NCBI GenBank assembly: GCA_004322275.1
Contig: SCTA01000009.1
Span: 1 to 50,366 of the forward strand
DNA length: 50,366 nt
DNA from: a bacterium
GTDB taxonomy: Bacteria > Desulfobacterota > Deferrisomatia > Deferrisomatales > BM512
Direction: 5' to 3'
Position 1 is the stretch's first letter. Each line of letters starts with the position of its first letter. A model generated the notes under the pieces. That model had not been told where the DNA came from and searched no databases. It saw only the letters and a list, made by a program, of their open reading frames with translations. A program made the position numbers and the translations under genes. Shown piece after piece: positions 1-50,366 of this stretch.

Positions 1-141
1 CTATGCTGGCGGTATTGTTGGGTTTCGCTTAAAGGTTTCCTTATTAAGGTCTTCTCGCAAGGCCCAGGTTTTGCTGCCGCTCTCCGCTTCGTGGTCATGG
101 TCGCTCAACGCCAACCTACATGACACATACCTGTAAAAATT

Positions 142-459
142 TACCTTCGAGCCGATAAGAGAAAAACCCCCTCCTCTTATCGGCGAGCCTTCTTTTCGTC
201 TCCCATTCTGGCCCGTACGCGGCGCAACGAGTGGAGGCGTCGGGCCGGCGCGGGGTCTTAGCGGAGCGAGTGCCCCGTACGGCCCAGCCGGAACGAAGTG
301 GTCGCGCTGAAAGCGCGAGCGGAACCTTCCGGGCCGAGTTTTGTCCCACTTTTTCGACAAAAGTGGGGCGCGGGTGCGGGGCGCGCCAAGCCCCGCTAGT
401 GTAAACGTGCGAAGCACACAAAAGTCACTGGATTCCCGCGCTTCGCGCGAGAATGACGA
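142..459 (+). repeat. Family A repeat, subtype I, copy A1 (solo)
   Basis: The copy starts with the constant box TACCTTCGAG (142-151). Hairpin H1 follows, with CCGATAAGAG (152-161) pairing with CTCTTATCGG (174-183). Next come the GC-rich core with the GGGGTCTTAG motif, a CGCGCT/AGCGCG hairpin, hairpin H2 (CCCACTTTT 345-353 with AAAAGTGGG 359-367) and hairpin H3 (GCGGGG 376-381 with CCCCGC 391-396). The outer end is TGTAAACGTGCGAAGCACAC, then a GCGC palindrome up to about 459. The stem sequences differ from other copies but stay paired. It lies just beyond the 3' end of the PAP2 gene. Bases 1-141 hold nothing I recognise. Confidence 0.85.
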
Positions 460-3321: not shown

Positions 3322-3381
3322 ATTCAGCAAAAAGAAATAAGTTATTTAAGGCTTTTAAAAACTTCGAGGAACCTCGCCTTT

Positions 3382-3505
3382 CCGGCAATCTATTTCGGCG
3401 AAGGGCAAGGAGTCCGCAGGGCGCGCGGTCGCAGGCAGTAGCGTTACTACGCCAAGACCCGCGCCCGAGAAACGACACAGTCCATTCGCCGAAAGAGGAA
3501 GCCGG
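3382..3505 (-). repeat. Family B 3'-UTR element, copy B1
   Basis: This is an imperfect palindrome of about 124 nt. Its outer arms are CCGGC (3382-3386) and GCCGG (3501-3505), the second arms TTTCGGCGAA (3393-3402) and TTCGCCGAAA (3485-3494), then GGGCGCG with CGCGCCC, and an apical GTAG/CTAC stem. Read on the minus strand it begins 6 nt after the stop codon of the CsgG-like gene. See copies B2-B4. Beyond it, on the same strand, lies a small CGAGG/CCTCG hairpin followed by a T run. Confidence 0.85.
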
Positions 3506-7524: not shown

Positions 7525-7534
7525 CCCGCCATTC

Positions 7535-7648
7535 AATCGCCGAGTCCCGCAGACCGCGGGAACGGGGGACCCGTTTTTTCGGGGCTAATCGCCTAACCGC
7601 GTAGGGCAATCTTTCCTGCCCGAGCCCGTCAGCTAACCCCGCAGGCGT
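7535..7648 (+). ncRNA. c-di-AMP riboswitch (ydaO-yuaA class) aptamer
   Basis: The leader carries the ydaO-class consensus blocks in order: ATCGCCGAGTCC near the 5' end, GAACGGGGGACCC (about 7560-7572), GGGGCTAATCGCC (about 7581-7593), TAGGGC followed by GCCCGA, and CCCGTCAGCTAACCCCG (about 7625-7641), closing with GGCG that pairs with the initial CGCC. This class binds cyclic di-AMP and usually turns off potassium or osmolyte uptake and cell-wall genes. Here it precedes a KimA-type potassium importer, the classical target in Bacillus subtilis. The call rests on the remembered consensus, and the match is close over the whole length. Confidence 0.9.
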
Positions 7649-7705
7649 CGGACAGGACCCCTCGCTAAAGCTTGAGGAGTCCTCCGAAAGACTATCTTTT
7701 GGAGG
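7649..7705 (+). promoter_or_regulatory. Riboswitch expression platform: two competing hairpins controlling the ribosome site
   Basis: CCTCCGAAAGA (7681-7691) can pair with TCTTTTGGAGG (7695-7705), an 11-bp stem that buries the GGAGG ribosome site of the KimA gene. The same CCTCCG is also the 3' arm of an alternative hairpin made by CGGA (7649-7652), GGAC (7655-7658) and CCTC (7660-7663) with GAGG (7674-7677), GTCC (7679-7682) and TCCG (7683-7686). The two structures are mutually exclusive. No T run follows either, so control should be at translation rather than termination. Confidence 0.75.
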
Positions 7706-7710
7706 TTAAT

Positions 7711-9822
7711 ATGGAAGGTCCCAAAGACGAAAAACCTTCGTCTTCCCCGGTGGGAGAAAGCGCTCCCGCACCTAAAACCGTACACAGTGTCGAAGAGATT
7801 CCCCCGCCCCCTCCCGTCGCCGGAGGGCCGAACGGCAACGGACAGCACGGTTTCGCCAGAAAACTGAAAAATATCCTCTTCGGAAAGCCCCGCGACCCCA
7901 CCGATCCGACGGTGTTTCACAACATCTCGCTTATCGCCTTTCTCGCCTGGGTCGGTCTCGGCGCGGACGGCCTCTCCTCCTCGGCTTACGGCCCGGAAGA
8001 GGCGTTCCGCCAGGTTCTTGGCCACGAATATCTCGCGCTTTACCTGGCGCTTATGACCGCCATCACGGTAGGCATCATTTCCTTCGCCTACAGCCTCCTT
8101 ATCGAGCATTTTCCCTCCGGCGGAGGCGGCTACGTAGTCGCCACGAAACTGCTCGGCCCGAAGGCGGGTGTGGTTTCGGGCGCGGCGCTCGTCGTCGATT
8201 ACATACTGACGATAACGATATCGGTGGCTTCGGGGGCTGACGCCATTTTTAGCTTTCTGCCGCTTGCCTGGCATCCCTACAAGATACTGGCTGCTTTCGC
8301 GGGGCTGATAATCCTTACGGTGCTCAATCTGCGCGGAGTAAAAGAATCCGTTAAAATCCTGATGCCCATATTCATGGTCTTCGTGCTGACTCATTTTCTG
8401 CTCATCGTCTACGGCGTTGGTTCGCAGTTCTGGGCCTTGCCGGAAGTATTCAGCACGGCGCAGGCCAGAGGCTCCTCCGACATGAAGGCGCTCGGCTTCG
8501 CTCCGCTTCTCTTCATTTTCATGCGGGCTTACTCTCTGGGAGGCGGCACTTACACCGGCATCGAATCGGTCTCGAACGGCCTCCAGATATTACGCGAGCC
8601 CCGCGTCGCCACGGGCAAGCGCACGATGCTCTACATGGCGCTCTCCCTCGCCTTCACCGCAGGCGGAATCCTGCTTTGCTACCTTCTGTGGCACGCCACC
8701 CCGGAAGAAGGCAAGACGATGAACGCAGTCCTTCTAGACAGGGTGTTCTCCTCCTGGTCGATCGGATCCTGGCGCTTCGGGCCGTGGCTGGTGATCCTGA
8801 CGCTGTTCTCGGAGGGCGCCCTCCTCTTCGTCGCCGCGCAGGCCGGTTTTATCGACGGTCCGAGAATCCTCTCCAACATGGCGCTCGACAGCTGGGTCCC
8901 CCACAGGTTCGCCAACCTCTCCGAACGCCTCGTGACGAAAAACGGAATTTTCGTCATGGGGATATGTTCGGCGATCCTGCTCCTGTACACCGGCGGAAGC
9001 GTCTCTTTCATCGTGGTTCTGTACTCGATAAACGTCTTTCTGACCTTCAGTCTGACCGAAATGGGAATGTCGCGGTTCTGGATGACCGAGGGAAGGAAGC
9101 ATCACAAAAACTGGTTTCGGAACCTGTGCGTCCACATGATGGGTCTGGTGCTCTGCCTCTCCATCCTCTTCGTGACGACCTACGAAAAATTTTCCGAAGG
9201 CGGCTGGCTGACGCTCGTCGTAACCTCTTCTTTCATAGTTCTCTGCGTCCTCATCCACCGCCACTACGAAAAGGTCCGAAACGAGATAAAGAAGCTGGAC
9301 GACATCCTCTGCGTCATACCCGAGGGAACGGAAGTTCCCCCGGAGCCGCTCGATCCGGCCAGGCCGGTGGCGGCGCTGCTGGTCTCCGGCTACGGCGGGC
9401 TCGGCATCCACTCGCTTCTCTCCATACACAGGCTCTTCCCCGGTTTTTACAAGGACATGCTCTTTCTCTCGGTAGGGGCGGTGGATTCCGGGCACTTCAA
9501 GGGGCAGGAGGAGATGGCGGCGCTCCGGCGCGGAACCGAAGAGAGCCTCACGCACTACGTAGAAAGCGCGAGGGGGCTCGGCTTTCGGGCTGATTACCGC
9601 TTCAGCGTCGGCACCGACGTCCTCGACGAGGCGGAAGAGCTTTGCCACGACGTAATGCGCCAGTACCCGAAGGCGACCTTCTACCTCGGGAAGCTGGTTT
9701 TCAGGAAAGAGAAACTCACCAACAAGATACTGCACAACGACACCGCCCACGCCATACAGCGGCGGCTCCAGTTCTCGGGGCTGCAGACGATAGTTCTGCC
9801 GATACGGATGGAGGGGGTTTAA
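7711..9822 (+). CDS. kimA: KimA-type potassium importer (APC/KUP superfamily)
   Basis: This is an inner-membrane potassium importer of 703 residues. A Pro-rich cytosolic N-terminus (1-60) precedes about 12 hydrophobic helices (about 70-540), starting with FLAWVGLGADGLSSSAYGPEE; the GADGLSSSxYGPEE motif (84-97) is the hallmark of KimA/YdaO proteins. A soluble C-terminal domain (about 555-703) resembles the universal-stress-like regulatory domain of that family and is longer than in some homologues. The ATG at 7711 has GGAGG five bases upstream, exactly the site sequestered by the riboswitch platform. The c-di-AMP riboswitch upstream independently supports the function. The gene lies alone, and a small unknown gene follows after 71 bp. 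Confidence 0.9.
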   Translation: MEGPKDEKPSSSPVGESAPAPKTVHSVEEIPPPPPVAGGPNGNGQHGFARKLKNILFGKPRDPTDPTVFHNISLIAFLAWVGLGADGLSSSAYGPEEAFRQVLGHEYLALYLALMTAITVGIISFAYSLLIEHFPSGGGGYVVATKLLGPKAGVVSGAALVVDYILTITISVASGADAIFSFLPLAWHPYKILAAFAGLIILTVLNLRGVKESVKILMPIFMVFVLTHFLLIVYGVGSQFWALPEVFSTAQARGSSDMKALGFAPLLFIFMRAYSLGGGTYTGIESVSNGLQILREPRVATGKRTMLYMALSLAFTAGGILLCYLLWHATPEEGKTMNAVLLDRVFSSWSIGSWRFGPWLVILTLFSEGALLFVAAQAGFIDGPRILSNMALDSWVPHRFANLSERLVTKNGIFVMGICSAILLLYTGGSVSFIVVLYSINVFLTFSLTEMGMSRFWMTEGRKHHKNWFRNLCVHMMGLVLCLSILFVTTYEKFSEGGWLTLVVTSSFIVLCVLIHRHYEKVRNEIKKLDDILCVIPEGTEVPPEPLDPARPVAALLVSGYGGLGIHSLLSIHRLFPGFYKDMLFLSVGAVDSGHFKGQEEMAALRRGTEESLTHYVESARGLGFRADYRFSVGTDVLDEAEELCHDVMRQYPKATFYLGKLVFRKEKLTNKILHNDTAHAIQRRLQFSGLQTIVLPIRMEGV

Positions 9823-11470: not shown

Positions 11471-12676
11471 GTGGAACTAAGTTTCGACAGATTTTACCGG
11501 CTCAACCAGCGCATCCTGATCTGGATCGCCTTCTTCGCCTTCGTCTGGCTCCTTCGGGATTTCTTCGGCCTCATTTTCATAATATTCATAATATCCTTCA
11601 TGAGCGCCCGCTTCGCCCGCCTCGGGGTGAGATACCTGCGCCTGCCCAACTGGCTGGCAATTACCGTGGTCCACCTCATGTTTCTCACCGCTATCGTCAC
11701 CTTCGTGAGATACGCGACTCCGCGCATCTCGACGGAAGCCGAGACGCTCATCGGCAGGCTGGGCCAGATAGAATCGACGATTCTGGACTACAAGTCGAAG
11801 CTGGCCGTCAAATACCCCTCCATCGACTCGGCCCTTACCGATTACCTCAGAGGGAACATACCCGAAGACGTGGCGATCGAGGAGATGCAGGAGGAAGCGG
11901 CCCGAGGCGAATTGCCTCCGGTTCCGTTGGCGCAGGGCAAGAGCGGCAGGGTAAGTTTGTCGGACGAAAAGCTGATAAAACTCTTCCTCGCCAGAGAAAT
12001 AAACCTTATCCGGGAGAAAGCCCCCGAATATTTCAAACTGCTCTGGCAAGGGTCGGCGACGCTGCTGCTCGCCCTTCTTTTCAGCTTCCTGATATCGATA
12101 GACGCCGTCCGCCTCATGCAGAGCATTTCGAGCCTTCGCCTTTCCAGGCTCCGCGACTTCTACGAGCAGACCGCGCAGCCCGTGGTGCGCTTCGCTTACG
12201 TCGTCGGGCGGGCGTTTCAGGCCCAGTTCATAATCGCCATACTCAACACGATATTGACGGCGGGAGGGCTGATCTTTCTGGGAGTCCCCTCGGTAGCCTT
12301 TTTGTCCCTGATAGTCTTTTTGCTCAGCTTCATCCCGGTTCTCGGAGTGTTCATTTCCACCACTCCCATCGTCCTTGTCGCACTTAACGCCGGAGGAGTG
12401 GGAACGGCGCTGGGCGTGGTGACGATGGTCGTAATCATCCATCTCATCGAGGCCTACGTGCTAAACCCGCTCATCTACGGCCGCCACATGAAGCTCAACC
12501 CCGCCCTCGTCCTCATAATCCTCTACGTGGGCCACCACTCCTTCGGAGTCTGGGGCATGATCCTCGGAGTGCCGGTAGCCTACTACCTCCTCCATGACGT
12601 GCTGGGAGTGCCCCTCTGGGAGCAGCTCGACAAGTCAAGGACTCCCCCTCCCGAAGAACCCGCTGAGGCCCAATAA
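11471..12676 (+). CDS. AI-2E transporter/PerM-family membrane protein
   Basis: This is a 401-residue inner-membrane protein of the AI-2E exporter/PerM family. It shows the family pattern: two to three N-terminal helices (about 14-75), a long soluble insert (about 80-190), then a cluster of helices to about residue 385 that includes VPSVAFLSLIVFLLSFIPVLG and a GRHMKLNPALVLIILYVG segment near the end, the typical signature. Members export autoinducer-2, indole or sodium/protons, so the substrate cannot be told from sequence. The start codon is GTG at 11471 with GGAG six bases upstream. It is a single gene, followed by a repeat cluster and convergent to fchA. Confidence 0.85.
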   Translation: MELSFDRFYRLNQRILIWIAFFAFVWLLRDFFGLIFIIFIISFMSARFARLGVRYLRLPNWLAITVVHLMFLTAIVTFVRYATPRISTEAETLIGRLGQIESTILDYKSKLAVKYPSIDSALTDYLRGNIPEDVAIEEMQEEAARGELPPVPLAQGKSGRVSLSDEKLIKLFLAREINLIREKAPEYFKLLWQGSATLLLALLFSFLISIDAVRLMQSISSLRLSRLRDFYEQTAQPVVRFAYVVGRAFQAQFIIAILNTILTAGGLIFLGVPSVAFLSLIVFLLSFIPVLGVFISTTPIVLVALNAGGVGTALGVVTMVVIIHLIEAYVLNPLIYGRHMKLNPALVLIILYVGHHSFGVWGMILGVPVAYYLLHDVLGVPLWEQLDKSRTPPPEEPAEAQ

Positions 12677-12689
12677 GAGGCTAATGCCC

Positions 12690-12782
12690 CCTTACCCGTC
12701 ATTCCCGCGAAAGCGCGAATTCAGAGGATAGTTGTGTAGGGTGCTGTTAGCCGCGAAGCGGCGTAACGCACCAATTCCCCAT
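12690..12782. repeat. REP-like small palindromes
   Basis: A short imperfect palindrome of the TTCCCGCG...CGCG type (about 12698-12718) is followed by a hairpin with outer arms GGTGC and GCACC (about 12740-12772), of the kind often scattered in bacterial genomes. Similar small palindromes sit at 30342-30361, 32912-32928 and 50124-50148. There is no coding potential. Confidence 0.5.
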
Positions 12783-13106
12783 CGTCATTCTCGCGCGAAG
12801 CGCGGGAATCCAGTGACTTTTGTGTGCTTCGCACGTTTACAACTAGCGAGGCTCTGCCTCGCGCTCCTTGGTACTTCTTTTAGAAAGAAGTACCCAAGAA
12901 ATCGGCCCGAAAGGTTCCGCTCGCTCTTCGAGCGACCGGTCGCTACGGCGGGGGCGTGAGGGGGCACCCACTACGCTTCGCTCCGTTAAGACCCCCCGCC
13001 GCCCTATCCGCCTCCGCTCCCTGCGTCACCTACGGGCCCGAAGGGAAGACGAAAGGAAGGCTCGGCCAAAAGCCCGGATAGCAGAAGGCTTTTGGCCTCG
13101 GATGTA
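12783..13106 (-). repeat. Family A repeat, subtype II, copy Aa (left half of a head-to-head pair)
   Basis: This copy has the same architecture as subtype I but a diverged core, and is inverted. From the outside in it holds the GCGC palindrome, GTGTGCTTCGCAC, hairpin H3 (GCGAGGC 12846-12852 with GCCTCGC 12856-12862), H2 (GGTACTTCTTT 12870-12880 with AAAGAAGTACC 12884-12894), the GC-rich core, and H1 (GGCCAAAAGCC 13064-13074 with GGCTTTTGGCC 13088-13098). It meets copy A2 head to head across about 25 bp. A 22-bp sequence at 12818-12839 is the exact inverted match of 13404-13425. Confidence 0.85.
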
Positions 13107-13131
13107 GTTTTTTTGATAGTTGTAAAAAGAA

Positions 13132-13425
13132 TACCTTCGAGCAAACGGGCTAAAAATGATCCAGCCCGTTTGCGAGCCTTCATTTCGTTCCCCACGAATG
13201 GCCCGTGCACGTAGCAACGAGCGGAGGCGTCGGGCCGGCGCGGGGTCTTAACGGAGCGAAGCGTAGTGGGTGCCCCGTACGGCCCAGCCGGAACGAAGTG
13301 GTCGCGCTTCTTTGAAGCGCGAGCGTAGTGCCCCGGGCCGAGTTTTGCCCACTTTTCCGATGAAAAGTGGGGCCGGGTACGGGTCGGCCAGACCCGTCAA
13401 TCATAAACGTGCGAAGCACACAAAA
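13132..13425 (+). repeat. Family A repeat, subtype I, copy A2 (right half of a head-to-head pair)
   Basis: TACCTTCGAG (13132-13141) is followed by H1 (CAAACGGGCT 13142-13151 with AGCCCGTTTG 13163-13172), the subtype I core, a CGCGCTTC/GAAGCGCG hairpin, H2 (CCCACTTTT 13348-13356 with AAAAGTGGG 13363-13371) and H3 (ACGGGTC 13379-13385 with GACCCGT 13391-13397). It ends in the 22-bp terminal inverted repeat at 13404-13425. H3 differs from copy A1 at both arms, with pairing kept. Confidence 0.87.
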
Positions 13426-13456
13426 AAGCCTCCCCAAAGGGAGGCGATGCATAAAC

Positions 13457-15120: not shown

Positions 15121-15239
15121 ATTTTTTTAGGCGTGAATCCCCTCTTTTCGAGGGACTTTTTTGAATGTAACGGCGTTTAATCTAGAGAGACACGAGAAGT
15201 CCCCGGTTCCTAAGGGCACGAAGTATTTATTCCGAACTT

Positions 15240-15363
15240 TCGGCAAACTATTTCGGCGAAGGGCAAGGAGTCCGCAGGGCGCGCGGTCGAAGGCAGTATC
15301 GGTTAATACGCCAAGACCCGCGCCCGAGAAACGACGCAGCCATTCGTCGAAAGAGGAAGCCGA
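15240..15363 (-). repeat. Family B 3'-UTR element, copy B2
   Basis: Outer arms are TCGGC (15240-15244) and GCCGA (15359-15363); second arms are TTTCGGCGAA (15251-15260) and TTCGTCGAAA; the apical stem is GTAT/ATAC. Relative to copy B1 the outer stem changes C-G to T-A and the apical stem changes G-C to T-A, each at both arms. On the minus strand the element begins 4 nt after the recG stop codon. Bases 15121-15239 hold no gene. Confidence 0.85.
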
Positions 15364-24915: not shown

Positions 24916-25035
24916 CCGGCTTCCTATTTCGACGGATGGCTGCGTCGTTTCTCGGGCGCTCCCGTCGTAGTCACGCTACTGCCTGCGACCTCGCGCCCTG
25001 CGGACTCCTTGCCCTTCGCCGAAATAGTTTGCCGG
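24916..25035 (+). repeat. Family B 3'-UTR element, copy B3 (inverted relative to B1 and B2)
   Basis: CCGGC (24916-24920) and GCCGG (25031-25035) are the outer arms. The inner boxes match B1 and B2 when reverse-complemented, including the apical GTAG/CTAC stem. It starts 2 nt after the TAG stop codon of the plus-strand phospholipase-like gene, so its orientation to the upstream gene is the same as for B1, B2 and B4. Confidence 0.85.
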
Positions 25036-25079
25036 AAATCGAAAAACCCTCCGCGTCGTGGAAGAAGTGCTCGCCTGAC

Positions 25080-30489: not shown

Positions 30490-31092
30490 TTAAATAATAG
30501 TATTGTCATAAATTCCATATACCGGTTCTGTTTTGTTGTACCAATGGAATGGTGTTATAGGGTTACTATTTATAAATCTTGAACCTTCATCAATGTGCCC
30601 GAGAATTTTCATTCGCTCCCAAGTTTCACGCAACAAAAAAACCCAATTTGTATTTATTTTTGTGTAAAATATTTTTAGCAATTGTAACGCTTTATTTTTG
30701 CCCTCAAGCTCAAGTATTCCATCAATCGCCAACAAAGTAGCCCAAAGTTCGTCACTTTTGGGGTTGGCGGATATATTGTTAATAAATGTATCAATCTTGG
30801 TACGTAGTATTTTTTCAGGATTATCTAACAAAGAGTTGTGAGCCAATGCCCTTATTGCTGCGATGCAAGTAGATAGGTCATTGCAATTTTCGTACTCTGC
30901 CTTAATTTGTTCCAAGTATATTCCAAGTTTGCCCGATATAAGCAGAATATCAATAGTTGTTTTTTTGTTTGCAAATGCCCAACCAAGTATTACTGATATG
31001 GCGTTATCGTTATAGTCTGATAGAAATTTTATTTTGTCTACCATCACCTCAAAACAATCATTATCTGCCAATAATTTGATAGTTCGTGTAAT
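30490..31092 (-). pseudogene. In-frame 3' continuation of the TIR gene after a TAA codon
   Basis: After the TAA at 31095-31093 the same frame stays open for about 200 codons to 30490. The encoded sequence is helical and repeat-like (ITRTIKLLADNDCFEVMVDKI at its start, then alternating hydrophobic helices) and looks like a smooth continuation of the upstream repeats. The only initiation options are a TTG at 31071 without a ribosome site, or an ATG ten residues later with GAGG only two bases away. The likeliest reading is one ancestral protein of about 770 residues split by a nonsense codon; a separate protein or stop-codon read-through remain possible. It is AT-rich like the TIR gene. Function unknown. 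Confidence 0.55.
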
Positions 31093-32802
31093 TTATTTTG
31101 AGTTAGAAATTGCAATACGCTCGAAGGCTGTAGCTATAATGTCTTCTTCCTTCTTTATATTGTTGTTTATTATTTCTTTTTCCAAAAGAAGTGCAATGTA
31201 ATCACATCTATCGTTGCTCAATTTTGTAATTAATAATGTCTTTATTTCATTCCTGACTTGCAATGCTTCTTCCTCTTCTAATAGCGATATCAACCATTCA
31301 TCATCTAAGCTACCTTCAAATTTAACTAATCCTTCAACAGCTTTTTGCCTTGATGAAGTGAATACACTATTTTTTGCAATTATCTTTAATATTTCAACAT
31401 TTTCAAGAGTTAAATCTTCAAAAAGTTCGTCGATCCTATCTTCTTCCTCTGTCTCAAGTTCTTCTTCTGAAGCCATCTGCAATTTTAGAAATTGTTTTGG
31501 AAGCCACCCCTTTTTAATTGACTGTCTTACCTCTTGGCGAATTGCCTCTGAAGGATCGGCATACAAATGAGCTATCACATCTGTTGTAAGTTTTGAATCA
31601 GGTTCACCATCTATCTTTTCCCCAGGCAGCCAATTGTCGCCAACTTTTTGTCGATATTTATTAAGCAATAAAACAAAAGCAGTATATCTAATCTCAGGCA
31701 TTTTGCTATTAAGACACTTGAATATTGTCATATTTCCATCATCTGCAAAATAATAATAAGGCGTCATGGCAGCAATTCTAACTGCTTCATCTTCGTCCTT
31801 CATTAAAATATTAACGCTCCGCAGAATCTTGCGTTTTTGCATCGGTAATTTACTGGCAAGTATAAAATAGGCAGTTGCGAGCAATTTCTTACATTGAGAC
31901 TCAAGTGGCTTATTTGCCATTTCTATCAAAGGTTCGGTTGCTTTTTCTTTTCCAATTGACACAACTGCACCAATTATTGATTCCGAAAATACCGAAAATT
32001 CACTATTACCAAAAAATCTCAAAAGATATTTCCACGAGTTTTCTCTGTTTCTTTCGATAAACATAAAATCTAATAACGAATTTTTAAACTTGTAGCTTAG
32101 CTCATTGTATTTATCCACATGCATTGACAGGCTATCTTGTACACAATCTAATATTTTTATATCAACTCCAACATCGTTAATTGCATCCCACTTATCATCC
32201 CTTTCCTCAAACATTTGTCTAATCACATCGTATTCGTTTCCAATTAAAAGTAATTTTACATAGCAAACTAAAGCCGGGAGAAACATTGGCTCTATATCAA
32301 TTGATTTAGCAAAATAAATGGTTGCCTTATCGTAATGATGCATTTCAAAAGCTTTTCTACCTTCATCAAACCAATATTCCTTGCTAACATCACTTACGCT
32401 TGACAATACTTTCTTTAATTCTCTGACTATTGAGTCAAAGCCAGAGTCATAACTCAAATATAGTATATTTGCAAGTTGTACCGGGTACTCCAGTAGCACC
32501 TTACTATAGTCCCCTATTATTAAAGGAACAAGAAGAGAACTGTTATTCTGTAGTTTTGCCAATGCAAATGCGGCATTTAATTCATTTTGAGCAAAATTAC
32601 CGTTCACAAAGTTCTCAGATAAACATAGTAAAATTATTTTGCAGCTTTTTAGACCATAATTAATTTTTGTCGAAAAAGAATCGCCTGGCACTAATTCTAA
32701 ATTATCATACCAATATGTAATACCGTTCCGCTCAAGAGCTGAAAGCAATGGTTCGATAAGATGTTTATCCTTATGCGCGTGAGAGACAAAAATATCTTTC
32801 AT
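31093..32802 (-). CDS. TIR-domain protein with C-terminal helical (TPR/HEAT-like) repeats
   Basis: This is a 569-residue cytoplasmic protein. The TIR domain (1-135) starts KDIFVSHAHKDKHLIEPLL, has the YWYDNLEL strand and BB-loop (30-37), and a Glu at 74 in NFAQNEL at the position of the NADase catalytic Glu. A TPR-like hairpin (about 143-180) and HEAT-like helical repeats follow (about 240-569). TIR domains joined to repeats are typical of phage-defence NAD hydrolases or signal generators; that role is inferred. The ATG at 32802 has GGAG six bases upstream. The gene is strikingly AT-rich against its neighbours, suggesting transfer. Its frame is interrupted by TAA at 31095, with about 200 further codons open beyond. 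Confidence 0.8.
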   Translation of the reverse strand: MKDIFVSHAHKDKHLIEPLLSALERNGITYWYDNLELVPGDSFSTKINYGLKSCKIILLCLSENFVNGNFAQNELNAAFALAKLQNNSSLLVPLIIGDYSKVLLEYPVQLANILYLSYDSGFDSIVRELKKVLSSVSDVSKEYWFDEGRKAFEMHHYDKATIYFAKSIDIEPMFLPALVCYVKLLLIGNEYDVIRQMFEERDDKWDAINDVGVDIKILDCVQDSLSMHVDKYNELSYKFKNSLLDFMFIERNRENSWKYLLRFFGNSEFSVFSESIIGAVVSIGKEKATEPLIEMANKPLESQCKKLLATAYFILASKLPMQKRKILRSVNILMKDEDEAVRIAAMTPYYYFADDGNMTIFKCLNSKMPEIRYTAFVLLLNKYRQKVGDNWLPGEKIDGEPDSKLTTDVIAHLYADPSEAIRQEVRQSIKKGWLPKQFLKLQMASEEELETEEEDRIDELFEDLTLENVEILKIIAKNSVFTSSRQKAVEGLVKFEGSLDDEWLISLLEEEEALQVRNEIKTLLITKLSNDRCDYIALLLEKEIINNNIKKEEDIIATAFERIAISNSK

Positions 32803-33100
32803 GTTGGTCTCCATTGCATGAGCCGTGTAGCCGTGTAGGTCGGCTTGAGGCACGAAAGCCGACATTTCATTAATTGTTTCTTATGTGGACACCCGTCAAC
32901 AAGCCGCATAGGGTGGGCTCGGCCCACCATCGCTTGGCCTTTTGTACCTGCGACACCGTGGCGCGCCAAAAAGATGACCAAATCTGTACGTAATTTATTT
33001 TGCGGCCATTATGCGACTTTTTTATCTGGATTGAAAGGGTGTTCCGCTACGCCGTGACGAGGGGTGATTGTGTAAGGCGAGCATAGCCCGCCTTTTTACA

Positions 33101-33362
33101 GCTCGCCGGGCTTCGCCCTGCACCCTTGGTACTTTTTTTAGAAAAAAGTACCCAAAAAATCGGCCCGGAAGGAGCCGCTCGCTCTTCGAGCGACCGGTCG
33201 CTGCGGCGGGGGCGTGAGGGGGCACCCGTTCGCTTCGCTCACTAAGACCCCCCCGCCGCCCTTTCCGCCTCCGCTCCCTGCTTCACCTACGGGCCACGAG
33301 GGAGGACGAAAGGATGGCTCGTCCAAAAGCGGGATCATGAAATGTTTTTGGCCTCGAAGGTA
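33101..33362 (-). repeat. Family A repeat, subtype II, copy Ab (left half of a pair)
   Basis: The inverted subtype II copy has H2 GGTACTTTTTT (33128-33138) paired with AAAAAAGTACC (33142-33152), the C-rich core, H1 CCAAAA with TTTTGG near 33323-33350, and the terminal box CTCGAAGGTA (33353-33362). It faces copy A3 across about 40 bp. The region 32803-33100, between the TIR gene and this copy, holds only a GGTGGGC/GCCCACC hairpin (32912-32928) and no gene. Confidence 0.82.
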
Positions 33363-33401
33363 GATTATCTACACGTATGTTTTGAATAGTTGTAAACAAA
33401 T

Positions 33402-33665
33402 TACCTTCGAGCAAATGAGCCAGTAAAATCTTGCTCATTTGCGAGCCTTCTTTTCGTTCCCCTTTCGGGGCCCGTACGCGGCGCAACGAGTGGAGGCGTC
33501 GGGCCGGCGCGGGGTCTTAGCGAGCTTTAGCGAGCGGGTGCCCCGTACGGCCCAGCCGGAACGAAGTGGTCGCGCCAAAGGCGCGAGCGACGAGTCCGGG
33601 CCGATTTCTTGGTCACTTCTTTATAAAAGAAGTGACAAGGAGCGCGAGGCAGAGCCTCGCAAAGT
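33402..33665 (+). repeat. Family A repeat, subtype I, copy A3 (right half of a pair)
   Basis: TACCTTCGAG (33402-33411) is followed by H1 (CAAATGAGC 33412-33420 with GCTCATTTG 33433-33441), the core, a CGCGCC/GGCGCG hairpin, H2 (GTCACTTCTTT 33612-33622 with AAAGAAGTGAC 33626-33636) and H3 (GCGAGGC 33644-33650 with GCCTCGC 33654-33660). A GGTGGGC/GCCCACC hairpin lies just outside. The region 33666-33816 up to pyk has no gene. Confidence 0.87.
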
Positions 33666-33816
33666 GTAAACTGGTGGGCCGAGCCCACCCTACGCGGCTA
33701 CAGCATCAACAAAGCGAAGGCCGCGAGTCAGCAACGCGCAGCAACCCCCTGAAAAGCGCCTGACCGCCTGGGTAACGAAAGATTTCTGCCCGTTCGATAG
33801 CGCGCATAAAACATGC

Positions 33817-44623: not shown

Positions 44624-44659
44624 AAAGGCCGCATCCATTATGGGAGAGCGGCCTTTTTT
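44624..44659 (+). terminator. Terminator of the beta-barrel-like gene
   Basis: AAAGGCCGC (44624-44632) pairs with GCGGCCTTT (44648-44656), and T residues follow. The first 15 bases, AAAGGCCGCATCCAT, recur at 46275-46289, on the other side of the repeat-flanked lipoprotein gene. Confidence 0.9.
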
Positions 44660-44682
44660 GTTTTTGCCATTGCTCTTTATAT

Positions 44683-44964
44683 GTGTGCTTCGCACGTTTA
44701 CACTTGCGGGACTTCGCCCCGCTCCCCTTGGTACTTCTTTTAGAAAGAAGTACCCAAGAAATCGGCCCGGAAGGTTCCGCTCGCTCTTTGAGCGACCGGT
44801 CGCTGCGGCGGGGGCGTGAGGGGGCACCCGTTCGCTGCGCTCACTAAGACCCCCCCCGCCGCCCTTTCCGCCTCCGCTCCCTGCGTCACCTGCGGGCCAC
44901 GGGGAGGACGAAAAGATGGCTCGTCCAAAAACGAGATCATGAAATGTTTTTGGGCTCGAAGGTA
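44683..44964 (-). repeat. Family A repeat, subtype II, copy Ac (left flank of a lipoprotein gene)
   Basis: From the outside in: GTGTGCTTCGCAC, an H3 stem with a G-T wobble, H2 GGTACTTCTTT (44730-44740) with AAAGAAGTACC (44744-44754), the subtype II core, H1 CCAAAAAC (44925-44932) with GTTTTTGG (44946-44953), and the box CTCGAAGGTA (44955-44964). Unlike Aa and Ab it is not adjacent to a subtype I copy: about 925 bp with a lipoprotein gene lie between it and A4. Confidence 0.85.
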
Positions 44965-45010
44965 GATTGTCTACAGTAGATGGGTGGGCTCGGCCCACCA
45001 AAAAGCCCTA

Positions 45011-45040
45011 AAGCCCCGACCATAAACCGGGGCTTTTTAT
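45011..45040 (-). terminator. Terminator of the lipoprotein gene, active in both directions
   Basis: AAAGCCCCG (45011-45019) pairs with CGGGGCTTT (45029-45037). T runs are present in both directions. It overlaps the lipoprotein stop codon by a few bases. Confidence 0.75.
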
Positions 45041-45750
45041 TTGTTAGAGCGCCCCATCCTGTAAGTAGCAATCTCATTCTTTAAGACGTTAACCATTAGC
45101 GTAATGTCTACGACCTTGAAATAGTACATTTTTATTATGTTGGGATTGCCGTTTTCAGTCTTTAATAACTCCCACTCGCCGAATTTACTTTTCCATAAGT
45201 CCGGCTCCCACGGATAATCCGCAAATTTTACTTTATCTTCAACCCATTGGCGGCCGCTCCACCGCCTTTTTGCATCTTCCAGCTTTTCTCCTGAGCCCTT
45301 TAGAAACACAGTTCCCGAGCCTTCAACATCAATAGACTTGCCCGTAAGCACCGCGTTAATAGACTTTTCGGCAACTTCTTTGCCTGTAATTTTTACATTC
45401 TCCTCCCAATTAGGATAATAAGTTGCGGTTACTTTGTATTTGCCCGAGGGGATTTTTTCATTTAACGGAGTGACCGATGGGGAACTGTCGAGCGTTCCGC
45501 GGCCTTTGCCATCGGAGACAAAGACTTTCCCTCCTCCCGGTGCTATCCCGAGCGGCCCATCTGCGAGATCGAGGCCCAGGCTTAGCACCGGCTCACCGGG
45601 TAAGTTGGTCGTTACATCCACATCCACTGTGTACGGTCCTGTTACCATCGGCGAAACCTTGATCCAGAAACCATCCAGACTTGCCGGATAGTCCTTCCCG
45701 CACCCCGCAAAAAACAGCATCGTAAGTAAAAACATCATCCAGCGCTTCAT
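45037..45750 (-). CDS. Hypothetical lipoprotein lying between two family A repeats
   Basis: This is a 237-residue lipoprotein. The signal peptide MKRWMMFLLTMLFFAGC predicts lipidation at Cys 17. The mature part begins with a beta-rich region (VTGPYTVDVDVTTNLPGEPVLSLGLDLAD, about 37-65), with KIPSGKYKVTATYYP typical of immunoglobulin-like or carboxypeptidase-regulatory folds, and ends with an alpha/beta segment rich in Trp. I recognise no named family. Its base composition is lower in GC than in nearby genes. It is enclosed by Ac (inverted) and A4 (direct), so it may be cargo of a repeat-bounded unit (inference). Confidence 0.68.
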   Translation of the reverse strand: MKRWMMFLLTMLFFAGCGKDYPASLDGFWIKVSPMVTGPYTVDVDVTTNLPGEPVLSLGLDLADGPLGIAPGGGKVFVSDGKGRGTLDSSPSVTPLNEKIPSGKYKVTATYYPNWEENVKITGKEVAEKSINAVLTGKSIDVEGSGTVFLKGSGEKLEDAKRRWSGRQWVEDKVKFADYPWEPDLWKSKFGEWELLKTENGNPNIIKMYYFKVVDITLMVNVLKNEIATYRMGRSNK

Positions 45751-45889
45751 ATTCTCCTCCGCGTCAACGGTTTCGCCTAACTCTAGTACCCACTCCCGTC
45801 AATGTCGAAGGCTTTTCCTAGAACTGGCATCCGTCAGGCGGGTTCCGCGCCAAGGGTTTGTATCGTGGCTCTCCCGGCAACCAGCAAAC

Positions 45890-46182
45890 TACCTTCGAGA
45901 ACAAAAGCTCAAAACGATTTCGCTTTTGTTCGAGCCTCTTTTCGTTCCCCTTCGGGCCCGTACGCGGCGCAACGAGTGGAGGCGTCGGGCCGGCGCGGGG
46001 TCTTAGCGAGCTTTAGCGAGCGGGTGCCCCGTACGGCCCAGCCGGAACGAAGTGGTCGCGCTTCTTGAAGCGCGAGCGACGAGTCCGGGCTGAGTTTTGG
46101 GCCACCTTTTGCTCACTCAAAAGGTGGCCAGGAGCGCGAGGCAGAGCCTCGCAACCATAGACCGATGGGCTAAAGCCCATCC
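45890..46182 (+). repeat. Family A repeat, subtype I, copy A4 (right flank of a lipoprotein gene)
   Basis: TACCTTCGAG (45890-45899) starts the copy. H1 is GAACAAAAGC (45899-45908) with GCTTTTGTTC (45922-45931), H2 GGCCACCTTTT (46100-46110) with AAAAGGTGGCC (46119-46129), H3 GCGAGGC (46136-46142) with GCCTCGC (46146-46152). The outer hairpin is GATGGGC/GCCCATC (46164-46181). Regions 45751-45889 and 46183-46272 hold no gene. Confidence 0.87.
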
Positions 46183-46272
46183 TACATATGTATCAAAATA
46201 ATTGTCGTTTTGTCGGATTTTCGCTTCGCTCAATCGCGACCTGCAAAGCTGTTAACCAGTACTGCACAACTG

Positions 46273-50154: not shown

Positions 50155-50180
50155 TTCAGGTGGTATAGTTGTAAAAAAGA

Positions 50181-50366
50181 TACCTTCGAGCCGATAAGCT
50201 AAAAATACTTCCGCTTATCGGCGAGCCTTCCTTTCGTCCCCTCGGGGCCCGTACGCGGCGCAACGAGTGGAGGCGTCGGGCCGGCGCGGGGTCTTAACGG
50301 AGCGAAGCGTAGTGGGTGCCCCGTACGGCCCAGCCGGAACGAAGTGGTCGCGCTTTTTAAAGCGCG
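50181..50366 (+). repeat. Family A repeat, subtype I, copy A5, cut by the window end
   Basis: TACCTTCGAG (50181-50190) is followed by H1 (CCGATAAGC 50191-50199 with GCTTATCGG 50213-50221) and the subtype I core, and the window ends in the CGCGCTTT/AAAGCGCG hairpin. No subtype II copy lies directly upstream, so this is a solo copy in the window. Its H1 stem nearly equals that of A1, 50 kb away. Confidence 0.85.

Follow-up and report, generated by a model that had tools for sequence, protein, structure and literature searches.

The locus at 12818-13425 of the window (the whole 50,366-nucleotide stretch of DNA that was analysed, which is contig C9 of a 2.88-Mb genome of 45 contigs and 58% GC) raises the question of whether it is a mobile element bounded by its own inverted ends or a structured locus of another kind. 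Both had been put forward in a first-pass annotation, which described a 608-bp head-to-head pair with perfect 22-bp terminal inverted repeats. Model matches obtained with nhmmer placed a subtype II arm on the minus strand at 12813-13116 and a subtype I arm on the plus strand at 13113-13427, confirming the head-to-head pair of related units; as the two matches share 4 bp (13113-13116), the heads abut. Sequence comparison likewise bore out the edges, 12818-12839 being the exact reverse complement of 13404-13425 over 22 bp. The pair sits between converging genes for an AI-2E-type transporter and an FTCD_C protein and, as had been noted previously, there is no transposase or RAYT gene inside or beside it, the neighbours (the AI-2E transporter; FTCD_C and folD) being ordinary. 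Its right tail abuts the T-run of the FTCD_C gene terminator (stem 13428-13445), with which the AAAA of the right terminal module coincides. The 608 nt fold at -385 kcal/mol, compared with -231 for shuffled sequences (z -34.7), well outside what chance would give. The features of the locus are as follows.

12736-12772, plus strand: GTAG-tagged palindrome (GTAGGGTGCTGTTAGCCGC..GCGTAACGCACC), recognised from the sequence.
12783-12812, plus strand: CGTC-1 REP-like palindrome (CGTCATTCTCGCG..GCGGGAATCCA) immediately beyond the left tail, recognised from the sequence by consensus features given in PMC3733652.
12818-13114, minus strand: left repeat unit, core subtype II (copy Aa of the first-pass annotation), tail at 12818 and head at about 13114 (nhmmer subtype II, 283 bits, and alignment).
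12818-12839, minus strand: terminal 'CAC' module with a GCGAAGC mini-hairpin, previously the left terminal inverted repeat (exact inverted copy; 25 genomic copies of its 21-mer).
12952-13004, minus strand: core arm of the left unit, 89% complementary to 13233-13285.
13113-13425, plus strand: right repeat unit, core subtype I (previously copy A2), head at 13113 and tail at 13425 (nhmmer subtype I, 272 bits).
13141-13173, plus strand: hairpin 1 of the right unit (GCAAACGGGCT/AGCCCGTTTGC), with a stem that is swapped between copies as a block.
13233-13285, plus strand: core arm of the right unit, 89% complementary to 12952-13004.
13404-13425, plus strand: terminal 'CAC' module, previously the right terminal inverted repeat (exact inverted copy; 21-mer matches).

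The gap at 12676-12818 is full of short CGTC- and GTAG-tagged REP-like palindromes (12697-12724, 12736-12772 and 12783-12812), in a genome that has no RAYT gene.

Read from head to tail, a unit comprises an AT-rich head (consensus ATAGNTGTAAACAAACTACCTTCGAG), hairpin 1, a long GC-rich core by which the subtypes are told apart, a third hairpin, a GC hairpin and a terminal module. Hairpin 1 is found with several unrelated stem sequences (GCCGATAAGC, GTCCAAAAAC, GCACACGAGA and others), and the third hairpin also exists in several versions. Pairing in the stems was tallied over the three subtypes at those positions that were predicted for both strands when G-U pairs were disallowed. At these 150 hairpin positions there were 3200 Watson-Crick cells, 21 G-U, 8 A-C and 26 other (98.3% Watson-Crick), and 43 of the 150 switch from one Watson-Crick pair type to another. 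We conclude that the stems are kept paired while their sequence changes wholesale, and the description of the locus as a 'paired structured locus' is therefore well supported. We suggest that a unit consists of hairpin modules in series, which base pairing maintains and which pass from copy to copy; given the scarcity of G-U pairs, upkeep at the DNA level or exchange of blocks seems a better fit than a slowly drifting RNA.

The family was catalogued by querying first with the pair and the individual subtypes and then, by profile, the approximately 330 kb fetched around the matches. With 40 candidates scored per search, the counts are lower bounds, and the catalogue may be incomplete: there are at least 123 unit pieces, at least 106 of them of 100 bp or more, and at least 64 nearly full-length units of about 290 bp, which fall into three core subtypes (25 of subtype I, 24 of II and 15 of III). 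Unit sequence totals at least 28.4 kb, or at least 0.98% of the genome, and many contigs end within a unit. No unit match was found in plasmid and phage records; two viral contigs that matched the core pattern were rejected as they did not match the unit models, as were 36 genome contigs, none of which had a unit-like match. Elsewhere in the window the following units and associated genes are present.

126-429, plus strand: subtype I unit with the same terminal module and a CGTC REP (nhmmer).
31093-32865, minus strand: TIR-domain gene of 34% GC beside the second pair (gene calling and domain match).
33073-33380, minus strand: subtype II arm of the second pair (nhmmer).
33383-33693, plus strand: subtype I arm of the second pair (nhmmer).
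44678-44978, minus strand: subtype II unit (nhmmer), with a unit at the same position and orientation in the same-genus genome G001 (comparison with G001).
45037-45750, minus strand: 237-aa open reading frame between two heads, 47% GC, with no Pfam match (gene calling and Pfam).
45883-46186, plus strand: subtype I unit on the far side of the 237-aa open reading frame (nhmmer).
50164-50366, plus strand: subtype I unit cut by the contig end (nhmmer).

The window also contains another dispersed repeat of about 64-73 bp (3379-3451, 15238-15301 and 24966-25038; 94-96% identity), which is unrelated to the units, and a c-di-AMP riboswitch (ydaO/yuaA leader, 7528-7662; Rfam, 91.5 bits) ahead of the open reading frame at 7672-9822.

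Where units are close neighbours they are arranged minus-then-plus in 29 instances, and the few other arrangements involve fragments. Both arms had enough core to be typed in 24 adjacent pairs, a lower bound that includes the 608-bp locus, and all 24 are minus-then-plus and all are I/II, I/III or II/III. Random re-pairing gives a mean of 7.9 same-subtype pairs against the zero of 24 observed, and gave none in 6 of 100,000 trials (P = 6e-5); this pairing rule covers resolved pairs only, since for about a dozen units the partner is hidden by a contig end. In twelve units the contig stops short of the head, and others have a truncated partner, so that the assembly could be concealing some same-subtype pairs. 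We propose that a second unit of another subtype joins precisely onto the head of the first, and that same-subtype pairs, which would form long near-perfect palindromes, are broken or deleted by SbcCD-type cleavage that different subtypes would partly escape. Selection against palindromes is the most likely explanation for the missing same-subtype pairs.

The units are strictly intergenic, and none of the catalogued blocks falls within a believable gene; open reading frames that overlap units lacked a consistent frame and were rejected by the gene caller, so a coding function was dismissed. Unit blocks are enriched between convergent genes: of the 49 that have both neighbours, 25 have convergent flanks, whereas 46 of the 169 neighbouring gene pairs over the same sequence are convergent. 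Unit tails point toward the 3' end of a gene in 59 of 80 cases and toward a 5' end in 21 (P = 2.5e-5), and heads show no such preference (16:17); eight of the 21 exceptions are low-scoring, mostly low-GC genes. At the loci that were read, the gene's own intrinsic terminator precedes the unit (13428-13445 and 44632-44665). We picture the units as lodging past the terminator of a gene, on its downstream side, and as pointing their tail toward its 3' end.

A potential explanation for these observations is that the unit works as a structured RNA, or as a 3'-end element, within the transcript whose gene its tail faces, with a role in termination, in mRNA stability or as a small RNA, and that pairs arise where each of two convergent genes carries one. 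The 59:21 orientation of the tails, the enrichment between convergent genes and the strong covariation are all consistent with this, as is the excess of G-U over A-C (21:8) on the head-to-tail strand. However, the terminator already lies before the unit at the loci read, G-U makes up less than 1% of pairs, which is low for an RNA kept by selection, and the GU-rich strand is antisense to the gene that is faced. Moreover, the exact abutment of the arms is not explained by independent 3' elements, and the units gave no match near the Rfam threshold to any described RNA family. We consider an RNA element to be unlikely.

The mobile-element description amounts to a non-autonomous, MITE-like transposon that is bounded by 22-bp terminal inverted repeats and mobilised in trans, for which the many dispersed copies, the exact inverted ends of this pair and the difference in sites between species can be cited, but the ends themselves argue against it. 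The 21-mer of the pair's end has 25 genomic matches at up to three mismatches compared with none for a reversed control, yet the 'CAC' module is carried by only 18 of 74 full-tail units (loose pattern), the remainder ending in GGGC..GCCC..CTAC palindromes or in other sequence; by the same kind of loose pattern CGTC-like end modules are present in 15 of the 74 and GTAG-like ones in 32. In several copies the terminal module continues into the CGTC-REP palindrome, which is joined to a unit tail at 400-469 as well. The 94% match over 70 bp between 400-469 and 12772-12841 means that homology of the left unit continues 46 bp outward, to 12772, through this palindrome. The 22-bp ends are thus one of several alternative terminal modules of the approximately 290-bp unit and not transposon termini, and since the modules vary and the match runs past them, they are the inner limit of the sequence common to both arms and not an element boundary.

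Other findings also weigh against this transposon. Single units are common, no target-site duplication was seen by eye at the edges of 12818-13425 (the one pair inspected), and the genome-wide check for a RAYT or IS200-type transposase that had been recommended with the original description gave a negative answer: Y1_Tnp (PF01797) is absent from the genome, which is rated 100% complete, although control genomes were positive, and a RAYT/IS200 mobiliser was rejected. Bacterial MITEs such as Correia/NEMIS, ERIC and Nezha are likewise dispersed, non-coding and hairpin-forming; however, in each MITE family the terminal inverted repeats are fixed and characteristic, and target duplications are present, whereas the units have variable ends and no constant bounding repeats. 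We conclude that transposition via the 22-bp ends is not supported and that a MITE is improbable. The units would instead have spread by single-stranded or recombinational copying and not through a dedicated transposase acting on those ends.

Units were present in one of 29 related genomes tested, the same-genus G001, and the other 28 were without them. The G001 units are 70-75% identical and have the same head, hairpins and terminal module. At the locus 44678-46186 G001 has a unit in the same place and orientation: two contig ends, which we infer to join across the gap, can be read together as a single unit with orthologues of the two neighbouring genes on its sides, and the 237-aa open reading frame and the second unit appear to be absent. 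Conversely, G001 has units beside trk and rpsA, and the genome analysed here has none there in the stretch read; the flanking genes at these sites differ too, so there is no clean empty site. Nor is there one at 12818, where folD-FTCD_C is conserved without a unit in two genomes of another genus but the other flank differs. Mobility was to have been abandoned if no empty sites existed and all pairs were vertically inherited, and the outcome was mixed, with one unit inherited in place and other positions differing. Together the common site and the trk and rpsA differences indicate that some sites have been inherited and others gained or lost, so that over time the family has either expanded or suffered losses; movement itself was not observed.

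Of the 123 genes adjoining units, 23 have less than 44% GC, compared with 3 of 141 in the rest of the sequence fetched (P = 5e-6). Subtype III tails show this association most strongly (10 of 19, against 9 of 61 for I and II together; P = 0.0016). These neighbours include TIR, nSTAND3-Mrr, ApeA-like HEPN, HNH and DUF4238 proteins and many without matches. The nSTAND3 protein with an Mrr-type nuclease domain matches the PADLOC candidate PDC-S73 from end to end; it is encoded by a single 754-aa gene (L040 1989-4253; C15:81488-83752) between two unit heads. An ApeA-like HEPN gene (PADLOC PDC-S58) of 41% GC adjoins a partial subtype II unit (L077 2142-3479). Beside the second pair in the window, two genes of 34% GC (30490-32865, the second open reading frame being 30490-31071) form a candidate defence locus, and the protein encoded at 31093-32865 is weakly HEAT-like behind its TIR domain.

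It could be argued from this enrichment that the units are structure-dependent gene-capture sites, with foreign single genes entering at the pair centre and at subtype III tails much as at integron attC sites. Three gene sets do lie between two heads (C9:44978-45883, C15:81453-83843 and C41:276-2619), near-copies of the head sequence (AAGGTAAATTTGTTTAC / AAGGTAATTTGTTTAC) stand on either side of the C15 insert, and G001 appears to have a single unit and no gene at the C9 locus. However, most units have no low-GC gene, genes enter at both heads and tails so that the junction is not fixed, and the five tyrosine recombinases (PF00589) are at unrelated places as judged by coordinates. The units also resemble attC in keeping structure while sequence changes and in having low-GC orphan genes nearby, but they are dispersed genome-wide, are about 290 bp long and have no array, no cassette boundaries and, as far as coordinates go, no linked integrase. 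The low-GC association is a correlation, and it may mean no more than that foreign genes and repeats both end up in the same permissive stretches between genes. Gene capture of this kind seems to us improbable, and we would put no more weight on the bolder idea that the paired units are active entry points, with the genus acquiring low-GC defence genes through a fragile or recombination site programmed into the centre of the palindrome (and into subtype III tails).

BOX- and RUP-type repeats of pneumococci are modular intergenic mosaics of sub-elements, and the units are like them modular and intergenic, although to our knowledge no obligate head-to-head heterotypic pairing occurs in those repeats. 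Short REPs of 20-40 bp form head-to-head dimers with an excess of heterodimers, for which an SbcCD argument has been made, and are sited at gene 3' ends and between convergent genes; a RAYT has been published for GTAG REPs only, CGTC REPs being without one (Di Nocera et al., 2013; PMC3733652). The units share with REP/BIME dimers of the GTAG and CGTC types their extragenic position near 3' ends and between convergent genes, their opposed, heterodimer-preferring arrangement (24 of 24 typed pairs) and their covarying stems, and CGTC- and GTAG-type palindromes stand at the outer ends of many units. In contrast to the single 20-40-bp hairpin of a REP, the unit has about 290 bp, several hairpins and three core subtypes, and tagged palindromes occur only as neighbouring end modules; its heads abut, far tighter than the 20-100-bp junctions typical of REP dimers; and it has low-GC genes alongside and no RAYT in the genome, as GTAG REPs would have. 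Because size and tag differ and RAYT is absent, we do not class the units as REPs, but they work like REP/BIME dimers.

We conclude, with a probability of roughly 0.62, that the 608 bp are a head-to-head, heterotypic dimer of an approximately 290-bp composite intergenic repeat, restricted to the genus, that follows REP/BIME rules at about ten times the length; its same-subtype pairs would be missing through selection against palindromes, and it would have spread without a dedicated transposase acting on 22-bp ends. Its anatomy, modularity, pairing, orientation, heterotypy and gene context were all observed, together with one common site and several unshared ones. The dimer, heterodimer and 3'-end rules of 20-40-bp REPs thus hold at ten times the length in a genome without RAYT, which uncouples them from RAYT biology and turns avoidance of palindromes into an explanation that can be tested. 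The association with low-GC, defence-type genes gives a starting point for finding where orphan defence genes come to reside when a genome has no obvious islands.
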